DNA from: Sulfurimonas autotrophica DSM 16294
GTDB taxonomy: Bacteria > Campylobacterota > Campylobacteria > Campylobacterales > Sulfurimonadaceae
Length of the DNA: 64,000 nt
Direction: 5' to 3'
Assembly (NCBI RefSeq): GCF_000147355.1
Contig: NC_014506.1
Span: 868,001-932,000, forward strand
The first letter of the stretch is position 1. Every line of letters begins with the position of its first letter. The position numbers and the translations under genes were made by a program. Below, piece after piece: positions 5,189 through 38,129 of this stretch. The notes under the pieces are model-generated. The model saw only the letters and a program-made list of their open reading frames with translations, was not told where the DNA came from and searched no databases.

Positions 5189-6082
5189 TTGAAAAAAGCA
5201 CTTGTTTTTTGGGTTGAAAAATATTTTTACAACCCAAACCTTTTGCAAAAACTTCTTTCATACTTACTGCTCCCACTTAGTTGGCTTTATTGTTTTATTA
5301 TGTACCTGCGTTTTCGATTGAAAAGAGCTGAAGATTTCGACATAAATATTATCAGTGTCGGAAATTTGACTGTCGGCGGCAGTGGAAAAACACCGCTAGT
5401 GACGGCTTTGGCGCAAAAATATGCGAAACCGGCAGTGATTCTTCGCGGGTACGGCCGTAAATCAAGCGGAATGATTGTTGTCAAAGATGAAAACGGCATA
5501 CTTTGCGATGTAGACAAAAGCGGTGATGAAGCGATGATATATGCTAAAAAACTTTCACATGCAGTGGTTATAGTCAGTGAAAATAGAAAAACGGCGATAC
5601 ATAAGGCAAAGGAGCTGGGCTGTGAAGTTATTTTTTTAGATGATGCCTACTCCAAGCATAATATTAAAAAGAAAGATATTCTTATACATGTAGAGACACA
5701 AAACAACTTTTGTCTGCCCTCGGGTCCGTATCGTGAAAGATTATGGCAGAGTAAAGAAGCTCTTATTGTCCAAGAAGGCATAGACTTTACACGTGAGGTA
5801 CATGTACAAAACCCTACACAAAAAATGAGTCTTGTTACCGCTATAGCCAGACCCCAAAGACTCGATGAGTACCTGCCTCCCGTGATAGCAAAACACTATT
5901 TTGAAGACCATCACAATTTTACAAAAGAAGAACTTGAAGCAATTTTGCAAAAAGATAAGGCAACATCTTTGTTGGTAACATTTAAAGATTACGTAAAGAT
6001 GGAAACCTTCGGACTGCCGCTTTCACTTCTGGATTTGGAAGTAAAAGTGAAAGAGGATGTAGTTAAAAAGTTTGTTTTTTAA
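5189..6082 (+). CDS. lpxK: tetraacyldisaccharide 4'-kinase
   Basis: LpxK phosphorylates the 4' position of the lipid A disaccharide at the inner face of the cytoplasmic membrane. The N-terminal hydrophobic segment (about 20-42) anchors it; the Walker A sequence VGGSGKTP follows at 62-69 and RGYGRKSSG at 86-94. The usual DDGFQH motif appears as DDAYSKH at 151-157, a variant with a shifted histidine that I recall from other Campylobacterota LpxK proteins. At 297 residues it is slightly short but complete. The start is TTG, four bases after the aminotransferase stop. Its last 20 bases overlap the 3' end of the permease on the opposite strand. Confidence 0.92.
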   Translation: MKKALVFWVEKYFYNPNLLQKLLSYLLLPLSWLYCFIMYLRFRLKRAEDFDINIISVGNLTVGGSGKTPLVTALAQKYAKPAVILRGYGRKSSGMIVVKDENGILCDVDKSGDEAMIYAKKLSHAVVIVSENRKTAIHKAKELGCEVIFLDDAYSKHNIKKKDILIHVETQNNFCLPSGPYRERLWQSKEALIVQEGIDFTREVHVQNPTQKMSLVTAIARPQRLDEYLPPVIAKHYFEDHHNFTKEELEAILQKDKATSLLVTFKDYVKMETFGLPLSLLDLEVKVKEDVVKKFVF

Positions 6083-7346
6083 TTATTCTTTTTGTAAGAA
6101 TTCTTAAACCGATTTCTATGAGAAATGCCAATACAAATCCTATAGCAATGTAATACCCAACATTCGGAATATGTTTGGATGTATATTGCAGTGCCAAAAT
6201 TATGGCTATAAACATAGTTACAATCGCTAAAAGCAGTAGAACAGTTGAAGCACCGGTATGTTTTCTTTTAAGCAGATGGCCAATATGCACAAGCGCATGA
6301 ATAAACAGCATTGAAATAGACCCGATTGCCGCAATTTCTTGTAAATCAAAAAACAGTATGAGAAATATCAAAAAGACAGCACTAATAATGAGCCCTTCTG
6401 TCGAATTGTAAACATTTCTTTCATACACCTCGGGAAGATCCCCGTTTTTTGCCATATCATAGGTTACATTGGTAACTGCGTAAAGATTTGCATTAATTGA
6501 TGATGAAGTAGAAATAAGTGCTGCTATTGCCATGATAGTAAAGCCAATCTGCCCAAAAACAGGTTTTGCGGCTTCGGCAAGGGCATAATCCTGCGCTTTG
6601 ATTATCTCAGGCAGAGTCAAGTTTCCAAATACGGCAAATGTTACAGTTATATAAAGAGCCATAACTAAAAGAATGGCAACCGTCATAGATTTCATCATAA
6701 GTTTTGAAGGGTCTGGCATATCTTCTGCCGTATTGGTTATGACACGAAAGCCTTCATAAGCAAAAAATGTCAAAGCAATAGACGAAAATATATTTAAAAC
6801 AGGCGGTGCATCTTTAATAGATAAATAAGATGGATGGATATAAAACGAGACTACAACGGTAAATAATATAATGATTGAGAGTTTTATTATAACAATTGTA
6901 TTTTCACTTTTTGCTATGAGTGTACTTCCTGCGAGATTAATTGCTACAAAAGTAAGTAGAATTCCTATGGCAAAGATATTTGCATAATCCGTACTGGGAG
7001 AGGTCATCATCATAGAAGCATAGGTACCGAATGTTTTTGTAACCATAGCAATAGCTACAATGGCAGAGAGATAAAAAAGAACAGCTACAGATCCGGAAAA
7101 AACTCCTTCTCCATAACATTGCACAAGATATTCTACAATCCCTCCGCGACTTGGGTATGCCGAAGCCAGTTTGGCAAGAGAATATCCGCTGAGCAGTGCT
7201 ATTATGCCGCCGAGTATAAAAGATATCCACACTAAATTACCTGCAATCGCACCCGCTTCACCGAGCAGAACAAAAATACCGGCTCCAACCATAGAGCCGA
7301 TGCCTAAGAAGACAGCACTCCAGAGTCCAAATGCTTTATTCTTCAT
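6063..7346 (-). CDS. APC-family amino acid permease
   Basis: A 427-residue integral membrane protein with about twelve hydrophobic segments. It opens with the APC superfamily signature SMVGAGIFVLLGEAGAIAG in helix 1 and carries FFAYEGFRVITNTAEDMPDP in helix 6, both characteristic of the amino acid-polyamine-organocation family. It is likely a proton-coupled amino acid transporter of the inner membrane; the substrate is unknown. The start codon abuts the stop of the DUF308 gene, so the two are co-transcribed with the small membrane protein upstream. Its 3' end overlaps lpxK by 20 bases tail-to-tail. Confidence 0.88.
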   Translation of the reverse strand: MKNKAFGLWSAVFLGIGSMVGAGIFVLLGEAGAIAGNLVWISFILGGIIALLSGYSLAKLASAYPSRGGIVEYLVQCYGEGVFSGSVAVLFYLSAIVAIAMVTKTFGTYASMMMTSPSTDYANIFAIGILLTFVAINLAGSTLIAKSENTIVIIKLSIIILFTVVVSFYIHPSYLSIKDAPPVLNIFSSIALTFFAYEGFRVITNTAEDMPDPSKLMMKSMTVAILLVMALYITVTFAVFGNLTLPEIIKAQDYALAEAAKPVFGQIGFTIMAIAALISTSSSINANLYAVTNVTYDMAKNGDLPEVYERNVYNSTEGLIISAVFLIFLILFFDLQEIAAIGSISMLFIHALVHIGHLLKRKHTGASTVLLLLAIVTMFIAIILALQYTSKHIPNVGYYIAIGFVLAFLIEIGLRILTKRIIKKQTF

Positions 7347-31159: not shown

Positions 31160-32053
31160 TTAGAGTCCTTTTATGTCGTAATTTTTCATTACGTCTTCGA
31201 TTTTTTTCATATTTTCTTTACTTGGAGCAACAAGAGGAAGTCTGTACTCGAGTGTTTCAGTAAGCCCTGCTATATACATTGCGGCTTTTACCGGAATAGG
31301 ATTGGCTTCACAAAACATCACTTTATTTAAAGGGTAGAGTTTGTCATTAATCGCTTTTGAACCGATAAAGTCACCGCTGAGTGCCTTGCGTACAAGTTCT
31401 GATTTTAAATCAGGCATAAGGTTTGACGTCACAGAAGTAATTCCTGCCCCGCCGTTTGCCAAAATAGGGTAATCAATAGCATCATCACCGGAAAATACCT
31501 TAAGCTCAGGTCTGCGTGAAAGCAGCTCAACTGTACGTTCTAAGCTTCCAGTTGCCTCTTTAACACCGTAAATGTTTTTAACATCATCAAAAAGACGGAT
31601 AGTGGTGTCCGCAGAGATGTCAACACCTGTACGTCCCGGAACATTGTAGAGCATAAAAGGAAGCTCACTTACAGCCTCGGCAATAGCCTTGTAGTGCTGG
31701 TAGAGACCTTCTTGCGAAGGTTTGTTATAGTATGGTGAAACTGAGAAAATAGCGTCAACACCGCAGCTTTGTGCATGTTTTGCAATCTCTATGGCTTCAT
31801 GCGTTGCATTGCTTCCGGCACCTGCAAGAACTTTTGTCTGTGTATTTTTACAAACTTCTACAGCTATTTCTATGCAGCGTTTGTGCTCATCATGTGTAAG
31901 TGTCGCGCTCTCGCCTGTTGTCCCAACTGGACAAACTGCATCCATACCATTGTTGATTTGACGTTTGATAAGTTCAGCATATTTTTGTTCATCAAGTTTT
32001 CCATTTTTAAATGGAGTAATAAGTGCGGTTGAAGAACCTGTTACTATATTCAT
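31160..32053 (-). CDS. dapA: 4-hydroxy-tetrahydrodipicolinate synthase
   Basis: DapA condenses pyruvate with aspartate semialdehyde, the first committed step to diaminopimelate and lysine. Schiff-base lysine K165 is in YGVKEATGS, Y136 in LYNVPGRTG, and CPVGTTGESATL (41-52) gives the second conserved segment. At 297 residues it is normal. In C. jejuni it follows pyrD and the M16 peptidase gene; here about 10.9 kb separates it from them. A TATAAT on the minus strand at 32084-32089 is its likely promoter. Confidence 0.95.
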   Translation of the reverse strand: MNIVTGSSTALITPFKNGKLDEQKYAELIKRQINNGMDAVCPVGTTGESATLTHDEHKRCIEIAVEVCKNTQTKVLAGAGSNATHEAIEIAKHAQSCGVDAIFSVSPYYNKPSQEGLYQHYKAIAEAVSELPFMLYNVPGRTGVDISADTTIRLFDDVKNIYGVKEATGSLERTVELLSRRPELKVFSGDDAIDYPILANGGAGITSVTSNLMPDLKSELVRKALSGDFIGSKAINDKLYPLNKVMFCEANPIPVKAAMYIAGLTETLEYRLPLVAPSKENMKKIEDVMKNYDIKGL

Positions 32054-32222: not shown

Positions 32223-34085
32223 ATGAGAATAATTATTTTATTGCTAATTGTTTTAACTTTTGGTTGGGCAAATGGGCTTGATGCACTTTTGGAAGATTAT
32301 AAAACAGAATCAGAACTTTCTAAAAAAACAAAAGATGAAAATGCGGGTCATTTGATTGTTTATACCAGAGATGAGTTGGAGCGTATGCAGGTAGAGTCTT
32401 TAAAAGATGTTTTAAAATCCATTCGATTTTTCAGATACTTGGAAAATCGTGTTGGCGAACCTGATATGATAAATCTTGATCCTGTAGTATTTAGTTCCAA
32501 ATCTATCAGAATTTACTTAAATGACAATGAACTTGTTCTGCCAATTACAGGAAGCGGTTTTTCAATGTTTGGAAACATCGATATGGACTTCGTTGATCAT
32601 GTTGAGATATATGAAGGATTTCCCTCTTTTGATTTTGGAATTGAGCCGGCTACTGTGGTTATAAGACTTTACTCTAAAGAGGCAAAGCGAGATGCAGGAA
32701 CACGGGTAAAAGTTCTTGGTGCTTCACATGGCTCAAACAAAGAAAATGTATACAACGCAGGATTTGCTGAGGATGTAGCCTATTTTGTCTATGCAAACCA
32801 TTCACAGAATAAACAAGACACATATACAGTAAATTCTCAAAATGTTAAAAGAGATATGACGACAAATCATTTTTATGGCTCCTTAGAAAAAGAGAGCTAT
32901 AAGGTGGAGTTGAATGCATTTGCAACAAAACATGATGGCTTTTTAGGGCTTTTGCCTTATGCTGTTCCAAATGATACAAATATGGAAAAGAAATTTATTA
33001 ATGCTTCATTTGGTTCAAAATTTCAAAATGACAGTTTGACTTTTAACCTCTCTTACATAAACAGTTATGGAAGTTATGATGCAGCATACAGTGCCCCAGT
33101 TGTATTTGGAGGTTATTCTTTGATAGAGCAGAAGTATGATTCTGAAGTGCTGACAGCAATTGTAAAGAAAAAGTTTCAAATTAGTAATCATACTCTTTCT
33201 GTCGGTGTACAGTATAGATATAAAAAATTTGATTTGGATGATGTAAAATATGACTCTGTTCAAAGTCCGGTTCAACAGAAATATGATAATGAAAATATCT
33301 ACTCACTCTTTTTAGAAGATGCTGTTTCACTCTCAGAGAATAATTTAGTATGTCTCTCTGTTATGCAACAGCATTATGATAGAAATAAAGCCATGAAGGA
33401 TGAAGATATTTCTCAACTGCGACTCTCTTATATCTATTCGAACAAAAAGTGGATTTCAAAGACCTTTTTAGCAAGCCAGAAGTTTGTTCCTGAACCATTT
33501 ATGACGGCAGAAGCACATGTTGGTAACCCAAAGTTAGAACCTGAAAAATATCTCTCGTTGACACAAGAAACAAGTTATACAAATGAACAGACCTTGTCAA
33601 AACTGATTTTAGGATATGCTAAAACAAAAAACTTCCTTGTGTCAGATGCTTCAGGCGTAATGCAAAATGCTAAAGATGATTTCATAACATATTACAGTGC
33701 TTTGGAGTTTAATTATTTTTTTAGAAAAAAAGACAAACTGCAACTGCAATTTGATTATGCAAAACTTAAGTTTCCCGGTGACAGTAGTGGAGTTGTTGAA
33801 CACTATAACTACCTTATAAGAATGGTAAACAGCATCTCTAAGTTTGATATTTTCAATGAGCTTGTTATTAACCATGGATTTGAAAATTTAGATACAGGTT
33901 ATGATTACTCTGCCGGTGTAAAATACAGTGTCACCCCTGATCTGCACATCAATGTTAAGGGTGAAAATATTTTTAATGCAGGGTTGACAAGAAAATACTA
34001 TTACAATATTACACCAACTCCAAAACAGCTTGAAGTTCCTGTAATTGAACAAAAATTTATGGTGAGTATGGAGTATCTGTTTTGA
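32223..34085 (+). CDS. TonB-dependent outer-membrane receptor
   Basis: A 620-residue outer-membrane protein with a signal peptide ending about residue 17 (FGWANG). The plug domain covers roughly 35-160, with IVYTRDELERMQVESLKDVLKSI, a strand listing DPVVFSSKSIRIYLNDNELV, and FVDHVEIYEGFPSFDFGIEP where the VEIYEG pattern is typical of TonB receptor plugs. The remainder alternates hydrophobic and polar residues as in a 22-strand barrel and ends in phenylalanine. No clear TonB box is seen. The ligand is unknown. It is the first gene of a unit with a small periplasmic protein and a c-di-GMP enzyme. Confidence 0.82.
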   Translation: MRIIILLLIVLTFGWANGLDALLEDYKTESELSKKTKDENAGHLIVYTRDELERMQVESLKDVLKSIRFFRYLENRVGEPDMINLDPVVFSSKSIRIYLNDNELVLPITGSGFSMFGNIDMDFVDHVEIYEGFPSFDFGIEPATVVIRLYSKEAKRDAGTRVKVLGASHGSNKENVYNAGFAEDVAYFVYANHSQNKQDTYTVNSQNVKRDMTTNHFYGSLEKESYKVELNAFATKHDGFLGLLPYAVPNDTNMEKKFINASFGSKFQNDSLTFNLSYINSYGSYDAAYSAPVVFGGYSLIEQKYDSEVLTAIVKKKFQISNHTLSVGVQYRYKKFDLDDVKYDSVQSPVQQKYDNENIYSLFLEDAVSLSENNLVCLSVMQQHYDRNKAMKDEDISQLRLSYIYSNKKWISKTFLASQKFVPEPFMTAEAHVGNPKLEPEKYLSLTQETSYTNEQTLSKLILGYAKTKNFLVSDASGVMQNAKDDFITYYSALEFNYFFRKKDKLQLQFDYAKLKFPGDSSGVVEHYNYLIRMVNSISKFDIFNELVINHGFENLDTGYDYSAGVKYSVTPDLHINVKGENIFNAGLTRKYYYNITPTPKQLEVPVIEQKFMVSMEYLF

Positions 34086-34495
34086 AACTACTCTTAGTTA
34101 TTATTCTCTTTATTGGCACTATTTTATCGGCAGATGATCTACAAGTAGAATCAGCTATATATAATAAGATTATTAGTGCTGTTACAAAAAAGGAAAAACC
34201 TAAAGTTTACATTTACAAACATTGTAAATCATTAGAAAAATATCCTGGCAATATAAAACTGGTCTCTAATTGTAAAGATGCAGACATTGTTATAGTTACA
34301 ACGTTAAAAGATATTCCAAAAGTCTGTTATGGCAAAAATATGTTTGGAACAAAATATTCACATTTGAAAAACCCTAATGTTCTTGGAGCATTTTTTTGGC
34401 AAAAAGGACGACCAAACATCCTTTTTTATAAGTATAGATTAGATCAAAACCATATAAAACTTGATAAAAGTTTTAATAAATATATTGAGCAATAA
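34082..34495 (+). CDS. small periplasmic protein linking receptor and GGDEF/EAL genes
   Basis: A 137-residue protein with a signal peptide (LLLVIILFIGTILSADD) and a mature part of about 120 residues. Visible features are KVYIYKHCKSLEKYP, KLVSNCKDADIVIVTTLKDIPKVCYGKN and FFWQKGRPNILFYKYRL, with three cysteines in the mature part. The alternation of strands and the DADIVIVTT segment recall the YfiR-type periplasmic regulators, but that is a structural guess. It starts at TTG inside the last codons of the receptor gene and shares one base with the next ATG, so the three genes are translationally coupled. Confidence 0.7.
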   Translation: MKLLLVIILFIGTILSADDLQVESAIYNKIISAVTKKEKPKVYIYKHCKSLEKYPGNIKLVSNCKDADIVIVTTLKDIPKVCYGKNMFGTKYSHLKNPNVLGAFFWQKGRPNILFYKYRLDQNHIKLDKSFNKYIEQ

Positions 34496-36387
34496 TGAAA
34501 AATGCAAAACTAAACAGAAGTTTTATCATGCTTGCCATTGTTATTCCTTTGGTAACACTTGCTTCCATAGTCATATATATTGAGTTTATTAAAACAAAAG
34601 AACATGTTTTTAGTGTTATAAAAGAGCATCTTGTCAATCAAAAGATATATACATTTCAAAAATATGTAACTCATATAGAAAAAGATTATGGTGATAATCT
34701 CCGCAAAACAATCATGCTGCATCCCGATACTGCAAAAAAACTTGAAGCACAACTTTCACTTTTGCAAGGAGAAGATGTTAAATATTTGTATCTTTTGTAC
34801 AGAGATAAAGAGCATAAATACAGATATCTATTAGATACGACAAAAGAAGCCCAAGATAGAGCATTTTTCAATCAAAAATTTGATACAGAATCAGATATAT
34901 GGGAAAAGGCATATAGTACAAAAAAATACCAAATAACTCAGCAAAACTCACTGGATAAACTCTGGGTTACAATTGCATACCCTGTAGTCGTGAACGATAA
35001 TGTAGTAGCAGTTCTTGGTGCTGACTTTACGTATGATGTTTATACACGTATTGTGCAAATATTAAAACCTATGGAAGATGTATTTTTATATATTAGTTTT
35101 TTTATGTTTATTATGCTTATACTGGCTTATGTGCTTGTTTATCTCTATTATAAAACCAGAAAAAAAGCTTTTATTGATCCTTTGACCCAAGTTTACAATC
35201 GTCAATATCTCTCTGAATTTTTAGAGACGACTTCTTTGCAAAACTATTATCTGATGATGATAGATTTAGATAACTTTAAACGTGTTAATGATAATTATGG
35301 ACATAATATCGGAGATGATGTTTTAGTAGCTGTAGCACAAGAGATAAAGTCGACTGTTCGTCAGGAAGATATTGTCATCCGTTTTGGAGGTGAAGAGTTT
35401 ATTTTACTTGTAGATAAAAAAGAGAATAAAGAGTCTATAGGAGTAGCAGAACGCATTAGGCAAGCTGTTATGAATCTTGATATACAGAGTCATGATAATC
35501 AGATTAGTATGACTCTTTCTATCGGAGTTAATCCTTTTCCTTATAGTGCCAAAAATATGGATGAAGCTATAAAAATAGCAGATGAACAGCTCTATGTAGC
35601 CAAATCTTCAGGTCGTAACAGAGTAGAGATTTTCGATGACGGAAAAAAATATGAGAGTGAAGCTTCCAACCGTATCAGTGATATTCGTCTGGCAATTGAT
35701 GAAGATGGAATCAAGTGTGCTTTTCAGCCAATTTATTTCGCAAAAACAGGAAAAATTGTCAAGTATGAGATGCTTATTCGTATGATAAACCATGAGGGAA
35801 AAGTGATTCCTCCTGACAGCTTTTTACCCTCTATTCGCCATACACAAATCTACATTAGACTGACATCTATTGTTTTACAAAAAGCTATTGAAACTCTTCA
35901 AAGCATGCAAGATGTACATTTGTCAATAAATTTAGACATTCAAGATATTTTAAATGAAGATATTATTGAACTGCTAAAATTTACATTTAAATCTAAGCAG
36001 GATTTGGCACAGAGAGTTACCATTGAGATATTGGAGCATGAAGAGATCACAAATTTTGAAGCAATTCAAAAGAGTATCTCAGGGTTAAAAGAGTTAGGTT
36101 TTTCAATTGCCTTAGATGATTTTGGCAGTGGTTATGCAAACTTCAGCTATATGATGAATTTAGATTTAGACATACTTAAAATTGACGGAACTATCATTAA
36201 AAATATAGATAAAGATAAAGCGGCTTATAATATTGTAAAAGCGATAGTTGCATTTGGACGCAGTATGAAGATGGAAACAGTAGCAGAACAGATTGAGACA
36301 AAAGAAGAGATGGATACGCTTGTGGAACTTGGTGTTGATTGTCTTCAGGGCTACTATTTAGGTCGCCCTGGCTTTAAGATATTATAG
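34495..36387 (+). CDS. membrane sensor with GGDEF and EAL domains
   Basis: A 630-residue inner-membrane c-di-GMP enzyme. Two transmembrane helices (about 10-30 and 196-219) enclose a periplasmic sensor of about 165 residues that looks like a Cache-type fold (LDKLWVTIAYPVVVNDNVVAVLGADFT). The GGDEF domain has an intact GGEEF at 298-302 and an inhibitory RxxD site (R289-D292). The EAL domain carries EML at 425-427 in place of EAL, with DDFGSGY at 541-547, the LKIDG lysine (K562) and E598, so either activity is possible. It ends an operon with the TonB receptor and the small periplasmic protein. Confidence 0.9.
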   Translation: MKNAKLNRSFIMLAIVIPLVTLASIVIYIEFIKTKEHVFSVIKEHLVNQKIYTFQKYVTHIEKDYGDNLRKTIMLHPDTAKKLEAQLSLLQGEDVKYLYLLYRDKEHKYRYLLDTTKEAQDRAFFNQKFDTESDIWEKAYSTKKYQITQQNSLDKLWVTIAYPVVVNDNVVAVLGADFTYDVYTRIVQILKPMEDVFLYISFFMFIMLILAYVLVYLYYKTRKKAFIDPLTQVYNRQYLSEFLETTSLQNYYLMMIDLDNFKRVNDNYGHNIGDDVLVAVAQEIKSTVRQEDIVIRFGGEEFILLVDKKENKESIGVAERIRQAVMNLDIQSHDNQISMTLSIGVNPFPYSAKNMDEAIKIADEQLYVAKSSGRNRVEIFDDGKKYESEASNRISDIRLAIDEDGIKCAFQPIYFAKTGKIVKYEMLIRMINHEGKVIPPDSFLPSIRHTQIYIRLTSIVLQKAIETLQSMQDVHLSINLDIQDILNEDIIELLKFTFKSKQDLAQRVTIEILEHEEITNFEAIQKSISGLKELGFSIALDDFGSGYANFSYMMNLDLDILKIDGTIIKNIDKDKAAYNIVKAIVAFGRSMKMETVAEQIETKEEMDTLVELGVDCLQGYYLGRPGFKIL

Positions 36388-36398
36388 GTTTTATTTTA

Positions 36399-38129
36399 TC
36401 AATTTTTAATGTAACGTTTTCTCTTGGCTTCTTTCATTTTAGAATTATCTGCAATGATGAACCCTTCAACAACACCATGAAGTCCCTCATTGATACTAAA
36501 ATCAAAAAATCGCACAGCACCCTCATCATACAGTTCTGCATACTGTTTAAAAAGAGTCGGCACAGATGTTCCCAAATCTTTGAGATATTTTTTTAAAACC
36601 ACAAAACCCTCTTTATAAGATCTGTATTTAAAAAGCATATCAAACTCCTGTTTTTGCTCATATGACATAAAATAAGGCGTTTTAGCACTCATCATATCTG
36701 TGTCGCAGGAAAAATGCAGAGAGTAAAAATATACGAGTGCAGCGACTGCCTGTTTTGGTGTATCGGCATTAATGGTAACTGTACCGTATGTATAGACAAT
36801 ATGAGGATTTTTAGCCAGATAGGCGCCGACTCCCTGCCAGAGATTGTCGAGTGCACGTGAGCCCCAATATTTTGGCTGAACAAAACTGCGCCCAAGCTCT
36901 ACGGAGTTATGACAGTAGTCTTGAAAATGTTCATTGAAATCACACAGGTTATAGGTATATAAACCTTCCATCCCGCGGTTTTTAATTATTTGGGCAACTT
37001 CTCCGATGCGGTATGCTCCGACAATCTCCAAATCATCTTCATCCCAGAGTATAAGATGTTTGTAATAATTATCATACAAATCATTGTCTTTTGCACCGCC
37101 TGTTCCACCGCCTATGGCGCGAAAAGAGATTTCTCTTACACGTCCAAGTTCCTGCATTAAAAAAGGTGCTTCATCTGCTTGCGCCAATATGATTTTTTTG
37201 CCGTCAAGTGTTTGTCCCAAAACTTCTGCTTTGTTTACTTCCCCGCGCAGAAGCATTTTATTATGCGCTGCCGTGATAGTTGTTTCTGTTTGTAAAACAC
37301 ACTCTTTTTTTGTTCCGAGTGTATAAAGATGCTGATAAAAAAGTTTTAAATATTCATTAATACTAATATTTTCATCACAAAAAGACGCAACGGGTATAAC
37401 TCGTCCAATGTTAAAGGTAAGTGGTTTTTGCTCGCCTGCTGTTACAAATTCATGGGGAAGCATTAACAGACCGCTTAGTTTTTTTGGTAATATAAGAGAA
37501 ACAAAATAAAAAAGAATACTATTCCTTCCTTCGATTTTTACCGGTAAAACAGGTGTATTGTTCTTTTTGGCTATTTTTAAAAAACTTGCTTTCCAAGGCA
37601 TGTCTTTAATCCCTTTGAATGACCATCTATTGACAACACCTGCGGGAAAAATGACAACCGCTTCTTCATTTGTCAACGCTTCATTAATGGCTTTTATACT
37701 TGTTTTTGTTATAGCACCTGTAATGTTATCAACAGGAATAATAATATCACTTGCCTGTGTAACTCCCATAAGCATACCGTTGACCATCAATCTGACTTTT
37801 TTGTTTTCTCTTGCACTGGCTATGAGCTGTACAAGTGCAAAGGCGTCCGATGCCCCTGTTATATGATTAGCTACGACAAGAACTTTACCAGTTGAGGGTA
37901 TGTTTTTAATCTCTTTTGGTTTGATTGTATAATCTATATCTAAAAGTTCAAGCATACTGTCTACAAACTCAAGACCTTTGAGGTAATGATTTTTTTCATA
38001 AATTTCATTATATTTGTTTTCATGAAATACTTTTTTGAGTCTTTTAATAAAAAAGTTATTTACACTTTTTGGCAGATATTTTACTGCTTTTGGAAAATTT
38101 TGTTTATATGATTTTTCTATATCTAACAT
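36399..38129 (-). CDS. bifunctional acyltransferase-GNAT protein resembling ornithine lipid synthase OlsF
   Basis: A 576-residue fusion. Residues about 50-270 are a PlsC-type acyltransferase with NHITGASD (88-95) and FPAGVVNRW (161-169); the H-x5-D spacing is the one found in the OlsF/hemolysin-like group, not the classical H-x4-D. Residues about 295-500 are a GNAT-type N-acyltransferase with EISFRAIGGGTGG, ELGRSFVQPKYWGS and a C-terminal acyl-chain region. Such fusions make lyso-ornithine lipid and then ornithine lipid. That specificity is inference. It is the last gene of a minus-strand unit with an MMPL exporter, an outer-membrane barrel and a LolA-like protein. Confidence 0.75.
   Translation of the reverse strand: MLDIEKSYKQNFPKAVKYLPKSVNNFFIKRLKKVFHENKYNEIYEKNHYLKGLEFVDSMLELLDIDYTIKPKEIKNIPSTGKVLVVANHITGASDAFALVQLIASARENKKVRLMVNGMLMGVTQASDIIIPVDNITGAITKTSIKAINEALTNEEAVVIFPAGVVNRWSFKGIKDMPWKASFLKIAKKNNTPVLPVKIEGRNSILFYFVSLILPKKLSGLLMLPHEFVTAGEQKPLTFNIGRVIPVASFCDENISINEYLKLFYQHLYTLGTKKECVLQTETTITAAHNKMLLRGEVNKAEVLGQTLDGKKIILAQADEAPFLMQELGRVREISFRAIGGGTGGAKDNDLYDNYYKHLILWDEDDLEIVGAYRIGEVAQIIKNRGMEGLYTYNLCDFNEHFQDYCHNSVELGRSFVQPKYWGSRALDNLWQGVGAYLAKNPHIVYTYGTVTINADTPKQAVAALVYFYSLHFSCDTDMMSAKTPYFMSYEQKQEFDMLFKYRSYKEGFVVLKKYLKDLGTSVPTLFKQYAELYDEGAVRFFDFSINEGLHGVVEGFIIADNSKMKEAKRKRYIKN

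Follow-up and report, generated by a model that had tools for sequence, protein, structure and literature searches.

A TonB receptor, a YfiR-fold protein and a GGDEF-EAL enzyme encoded together in Sulfurimonas autotrophica: a candidate surface-to-cytoplasm relay

Introduction

How might a TonB-dependent receptor of the outer membrane come to be encoded in one operon with an enzyme of cyclic di-GMP (c-di-GMP) metabolism? The question is raised by a locus in a 64,000-nucleotide stretch of the Sulfurimonas autotrophica genome (G000:C1:868001-932000, on a single contig of 2,153,198 bp), called the window here. On its forward strand, the gene for a receptor (32223-34085), the gene for a 137-residue middle protein (34082-34495; working name MID) and the gene for a membrane GGDEF-EAL protein (34495-36387) follow one another. 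A preliminary description of the locus had likened this layout to YfiB/YfiR/YfiN, except that a TonB receptor occupies the position of YfiB. The analysis presented here supports that likeness, as MID is predicted to adopt the YfiR fold and the enzyme to carry a Cache/PAS-type sensor. From the anatomy of the operon and its comparison with relatives we infer a three-layer, YfiBNR-type relay whose TonB receptor replaces YfiB, a reading to which we give a probability of roughly 0.6.

Results

A link to a known system comes from structure prediction of the 137-residue protein, a check proposed in the preliminary description. The AlphaFold model, built from 85 sequences, is confident (predicted local distance difference test, pLDDT, 94.3) and has the YfiR fold. 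Structural comparison with VIA, in which rows differing by 1 or less in Z-score (Z) count as tied, matched the model to YfiR chain 4yn7_B at Z 10.2 with a root-mean-square deviation (rmsd) of 3.3 Å over 121 aligned residues. Eight YfiR entries match at Z 8.3-10.2 (rmsd 3.3-3.6 Å, 116-121 residues aligned). A substrate-binding protein from Rhodothermus marinus reached Z 8.2-9.3 (rmsd 3.0-3.4 Å) and the binding-protein lobes 3lkv and 3lft Z 10-11 at an rmsd of about 8 Å; the rows after YfiR and the binding proteins stay at Z 6.8 or below. Foldseek placed YfiR chains close behind its top matches, from E 1.8e-3 with probability 1.00 and template modelling (TM) scores of about 0.5-0.6. An excerpt of PMC4655355 gives 3LFT and 3LKV as the nearest folds of YfiR, which makes these two near folds common to MID and YfiR.

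By sequence, MID proved as unrecognizable as first described, with no Pfam family above cut-off. Candidate identities from Pfam, NCBIfam and PDB sequence searches were rejected as chance-level matches (RnaseA at E 0.054, for example). PF13689 (DUF4154) was found neither in MID, nor among the families listed (25 of 44) for its 85 relatives, nor in a search of its own genome. Sequence kinship with YfiR was suggested by full-length HHalign comparison (56, 60 and 66%) and was rejected when it was lost after signal-peptide removal and shuffled controls. The case for MID-YfiR kinship is one of fold and gene order, and a common fold is no proof of descent. The protein is of periplasmic type with a hydrophobic, signal-like N terminus, and a lipobox-like motif occurs in 1 of 85 relatives. 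Its cysteines C64 and C82 are both present in 58 of the 85 sequences and both absent in 23, with C64 alone in 4, a covariation that a disulfide would be expected to produce. Two cysteine pairs are present in YfiR and HmsC, and one covarying pair in MID.

The third protein (630 residues, ATG start) matches GGDEF at E 3e-44 and EAL at E 3.5e-63 in Pfam, which listed no HAMP domain in it. Residues 32-224 (34588-35166, forward strand, as are all features given here for the window) are predicted to form a periplasmic Cache/PAS-type sensor with flanking helices. AlphaFold modelled the sensor as a single domain of this type (pLDDT 91.2), and its fold matches include WalK (4ywz_B; Z 15.8, 2.6 Å, 141 residues) and KinD (Z 13.8). 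The GGDEF domain (35167-35622) carries GGEEF and an RxxD I-site (RQED), and the EAL domain (35680-36369) retains eight of eight checked catalytic positions; the sequence signatures of both a cyclase and a phosphodiesterase active site are present. The receptor (620 residues, ATG start) scores barely above the Pfam cut-offs, at 24.0 versus 23.9 bits for Plug (residues 39-140) and 28.8 versus 27 bits for the TonB barrel (residues 198-485). Carried to E 10, the Pfam scan lists Plug, the barrel and one sub-threshold DUF for this protein, and no STN domain.

The genes overlap as the preliminary description had stated, the receptor and MID by four bases (TTGA, 34082-34085, MID starting at TTG) and MID and the enzyme by one (TAATG). 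Both neighbouring open reading frames (ORFs; 31160-32053 and 36399-38129) lie on the opposite strand, and the three genes therefore form a stand-alone unit. The neighbouring genes on either side give no hint of a ligand, and promoter and terminator scans of the locus returned shuffle-level scores that are uninformative in either direction.

Failure of the triplet to recur in related genomes had been named at the outset as one result that would refute a relay; the search found that it recurs widely. MID was found in 46 of 99 related genomes by single-sequence search and in 53 of a sample of 298 Campylobacterota genomes by profile search, and a second collection yielded 31 MID loci, every title of which is from Campylobacterota. 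Removal of three duplicates and three fragments shorter than 100 residues (broken copies) from 92 profile matches left 86 distinct MID ORFs. At 81 of the 86 loci an ORF of 300 residues or more lies upstream, in 80 of them overlapping or abutting MID, and the commonest spacing between receptor and MID is -4 (34 of 81). Downstream, 77 of the 86 loci have an ORF of 180 residues or more, which overlaps or abuts MID at 58 loci; one of the 77 is a second receptor (L032). ORFs at related loci begin at the earliest possible start, which makes a few long overlaps (-190, -196) artefacts. Because overlap or abutment recurs among 86 distinct homologous MID ORFs, the arrangement of the trio is not a product of chance. 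Among 76 upstream proteins (85 minus 11 that were truncated, not receptors or the window copy, plus the window protein and one tandem copy), 59 match Plug and 13 the barrel model. On the downstream side, Pfam found GGDEF in 66, EAL in 46 and HATPase_c in 9 of 82 proteins (the window protein and 81 of 83 others). Two receptors stand in tandem at L031 (2136-5881), and the receptor-MID unit is repeated at L032 (1-3432). Decaying copies were seen at L072 of genome G011 (6001-6423 and upstream), with an internal stop in MID and a fragmented receptor, and at G013:C75:431-609, where the receptor N terminus is split and MID was not found.

MID, the sensor and the receptor also travel together. A sensor profile, built on the periplasmic domain of the third gene and trained on MID neighbours, gave 66 matches in the 99 genomes, and 57 of them are same-strand neighbours of MID. 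Of the other nine, six fall below 24 bits and three are strong; in G062 a receptor motif sits between sensor and MID, a second (G057:C102) lies at a contig end, and the third is weighed below. Counted by genome with the sensor above 30 bits, 46 of the 99 contain both, one the sensor alone, none MID alone and 52 neither. A receptor N-terminal profile of about 62 residues, trained in the same way, matched 63 times in the 99 genomes, 55 times with MID 1.8-4.0 kb downstream. The remaining eight comprise three matches below 24 bits, two fragments of a single disrupted gene (G013) and three strong matches (G057:C161, G053:C109 and G004:C20). No receptor motif lies upstream of 5 of 60 MID matches, among them two near contig ends (G019:C36 and G004:C36) and a weak MID match (G042:C62). 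Distances among the three proteins are congruent (Mantel r 0.80-0.87 over 64 loci), a result that shared descent alone could produce.

On this kept sensor the output varies. The tree of MID plus sensor contains 73 rows, one unlabelled, with 46 GGDEF-EAL proteins, 19 GGDEF proteins and 7 kinases. It requires at least eight changes of output, and well-supported branches force five for the GGDEF-EAL label. GGEEF is present in 65 of 66 GGDEF matches, the remaining one (L056) being cut by a contig end, and the I-site RxxD in 62 of the 65 GGEEF rows; EAL catalytic residues are intact in 38 of 42 full-length relatives. Judged from these motifs, the cyclase signature is retained while the EAL part comes and goes, which is in line with the modular outputs described for YfiR-YfiN cores (Malone et al., PMC3375315, section 12). 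The kinases of L066 and L076, which have another sensor, were left off the tree. The third gene at these two loci (L066 4175-5989 and L076 6417-8231) encodes a PAS histidine kinase whose periplasmic part shares 12-13% identity with the window sensor; such kinases may be a second type of partner for MID.

The best-conserved segment of MID is a hairpin at residues 102-115 (34385-34426; G.FFWQKGRPNILF, in pattern form GxFFWxKGRPNIxF). W106 is present in 85 of 85 MID sequences, and G102, K108, G109, R110 and P111 in 94-98%. VIA pairs MID 15-136 with YfiR 38-185, and an ungapped slide back from the alignment end (offset 49) carries MID 102-115 to YfiR 151-164; the aligner outputs no residue pairs, and the placement is an extrapolation anchored at the alignment end. 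The YfiR sequence, allowing for a construct offset, is consistent with F151, F162, E163 and I169. Mutations in YfiR that alter its affinity for YfiN are given in an excerpt of Malone 2012 (PMC3375315) as F151, E163, I169 and Q187 around F162, and the YfiB interface of YfiR, in the excerpted PMC4655355, includes residues earlier shown to contact YfiN. By this extrapolation, the best-kept hairpin of MID would fall on the YfiN/YfiB-binding surface of YfiR. On the receptor, the N-terminal stretch and the start of the plug (32271-32453), found through the N-terminal profile, form a candidate periplasmic contact face. The mean majority-residue frequency is 0.59 at residues 17-60, 0.58 at residues 119-160 and 0.36-0.38 in the barrel, a conservation pattern that suggests that the periplasmic face stays constant and the outer side varies.

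Related trios with other YfiR-like proteins exist. A second one in the same genome (L141 4305-8872, within G000:C1:368001-380000) encodes a receptor, a 182-residue protein and a GGDEF-EAL enzyme. The group profile of the 182-residue protein reaches DUF4154 at 96% in full length and 94.7% without signal peptides. In this group a receptor lies upstream in 20 of 20 fetched loci, and 16 of 19 enzymes have GGDEF plus EAL while 3 of 19 have a kinase ATPase domain. Beside canonical DUF4154 proteins in related genomes, Plug was detected in 11 of 20 neighbour proteins scanned, these 20 coming from 13 of 14 loci. Searching plasmids with a portion of one DUF4154 protein returned three alphaproteobacterial records, two from Sphingobium and one from Indioceanicola, and in all three a TonB receptor, a DUF4154 protein and a CHASE8 histidine kinase are consecutive by Pfam. 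The S. autotrophica genome as a whole has six plug matches and 52 GGDEF matches. Two further TonB-GGDEF neighbourhoods of this genome were rejected as trios, L142 on account of intervening genes and L143 because its receptor is accompanied by a two-component system and a cyclase and no YfiR-like protein. At L143 (3468-8881, within G000:C1:1695001-1708000) a GGDEF protein, a response regulator, a TonB receptor and a histidine kinase overlap on the same strand.

Discussion

In the proposed mechanism, MID would be a soluble periplasmic protein whose GxFFWxKGRPNIxF hairpin binds the enzyme at its Cache/PAS domain. MID would in this way set enzyme activity, presumably holding the cyclase output down, a sign taken only by analogy with YfiR. 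The periplasmic face of the receptor would compete with the enzyme for MID. Binding of a ligand or a pull by TonB would cause the N-terminal/plug face to capture or release MID, and c-di-GMP would change as a result.

Several observations weigh against this reading. Profile-profile comparison of mature MID with YfiR gave scores of 17.7 and 15.7 versus shuffled maxima of 18.0 and 18.1; with the scores at control level, we speak of a YfiR fold and not of the YfiR family. The top Foldseek match is the R. marinus substrate-binding protein (E 4.9e-4), followed by 3lkv (9.4e-4), and the modelled fold also fits ligand binding. The third strong sensor match mentioned above is in G058, where MID was not found. 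MID and an enzyme occur with an aldolase upstream in place of the receptor at L035 and with no upstream receptor seen at L097, both apparently true exceptions. Four loci have a receptor and MID without the enzyme, in whose place stands an ORF of 153-160 residues (L054 2914-3375, L057 3647-4108, L058 5279-5740 and L098 6426-6908); the two scanned individually, from L054 and L098, match HAD hydrolases. Matches to training rows are built into the counts from the sensor and receptor profiles, and the scarcity of other strong matches is the part that the training did not build in.

The main rival sees MID as a binding protein reduced to a single lobe of the type I periplasmic kind, which would pass a ligand imported by the receptor to the Cache sensor; the receptor would then be an importer and not a transducer. 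Cache domains often bind small ligands, and MID does match the lobes 3lkv and 3lft and, at the head of the Foldseek results, the Rhodothermus protein. However, YfiR resembles the same lobes and yet works through protein contacts, according to an excerpt of PMC4655355. A single lobe would have no closed ligand cleft, and the conserved residues of MID are located on the hairpin, so a ligand shuttle appears unlikely to us. Overlapping genes are common in compact genomes, and the three proteins could simply be needed under the same conditions with no mutual contact. This is quite unlikely given that MID and the sensor co-occur near-perfectly across the 99 genomes and that outputs swap on the kept sensor; the congruent distances point the same way, though shared descent alone would suffice for them.

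The contacts of the relay could also be right and its sign reversed, with MID activating the enzyme or with the phosphodiesterase as the main regulated output. The intact EAL site in most full-length relatives leaves room for members that mainly degrade c-di-GMP, and the present results do not fix the sign of regulation. That said, the near-universal GGEEF, with EAL absent or damaged in many, points to cyclase output, and YfiR and HmsC act as repressors in the excerpted accounts of PMC3375315 and PMC5550408. A reversed sign is distinctly improbable on these grounds.

The TonB receptors known to signal do so by way of an STN domain and anti-sigma factors. A YfiBNR-type relay in the window would constitute a second TonB-receptor route, one that links cell-surface encounters directly to c-di-GMP. 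It would explain why two receptors of this genome are placed before c-di-GMP enzymes via YfiR-like proteins, and it would predict an input for proteins resembling YfiR; YfiB is missing from nearly all of their divergent operons (PMC3375315, section 12). The hairpin and the receptor segment can be named as targets for mutation. More tentatively, the loci may represent a widespread and apparently undescribed signalling route, composed of a TonB receptor, a YfiR-fold adaptor and a Cache/PAS sensor with interchangeable outputs (cyclase, cyclase-phosphodiesterase or histidine kinase). Such a route would draw on three or more YfiR-like subfamilies in Campylobacterota and occur in alphaproteobacteria as well. 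It might even predate YfiBNR as the setting of the YfiR-YfiN core, YfiB having replaced the receptor later. TonB receptor-YfiR coupling was not found among the matches listed in the open full-text literature (titles and abstract openings, most subscription journals lying outside), and the main text of Malone 2012 (PMC3375315) has zero occurrences of 'TonB'.

Comparison with Known Systems

The systems closest to the window unit are YfiBNR of Pseudomonas aeruginosa and HmsCDE of Yersinia. They share with it an outer-membrane protein, a soluble periplasmic protein of the same fold and an inner-membrane enzyme with a periplasmic PAS/Cache-type domain and GGDEF, along with modular outputs (PMC3375315). 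The analogy of the preliminary description is strengthened by fold and sensor type and has these limits: MID, at 137 residues, falls outside the YfiR family by sequence, and the enzyme, unlike YfiN, is a GGDEF-EAL protein without HAMP. The window unit also has a TonB receptor where the YfiB lipoprotein stands in YfiBNR; no YfiB (OmpA/Pal-like lipoprotein) is present in the three-gene unit, the rest of the genome not having been searched for one. The DUF4154/YfiR-HmsC proteins beside TonB receptors in Campylobacterota and on alphaproteobacterial plasmids form the same kind of operon, with a receptor, a YfiR-like protein and a GGDEF protein or kinase. They differ in belonging to another YfiR subfamily, in having the receptor downstream in most canonical DUF4154 loci of Campylobacterota and, on the plasmids, in kinases that carry CHASE8. 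The WalK and KinD extracellular domains are the best fold matches of the sensor, and a WalK-YycH model, of a kinase with an accessory protein, is among them. These are Gram-positive kinases of cells with no outer membrane, and the accessory protein is not YfiR-like. Like FecA-type receptors, the window receptor would relay a signal inward; unlike them, it shows no STN domain in Pfam and has no sigma or anti-sigma gene in its operon, and its route would pass through a YfiR-fold protein.

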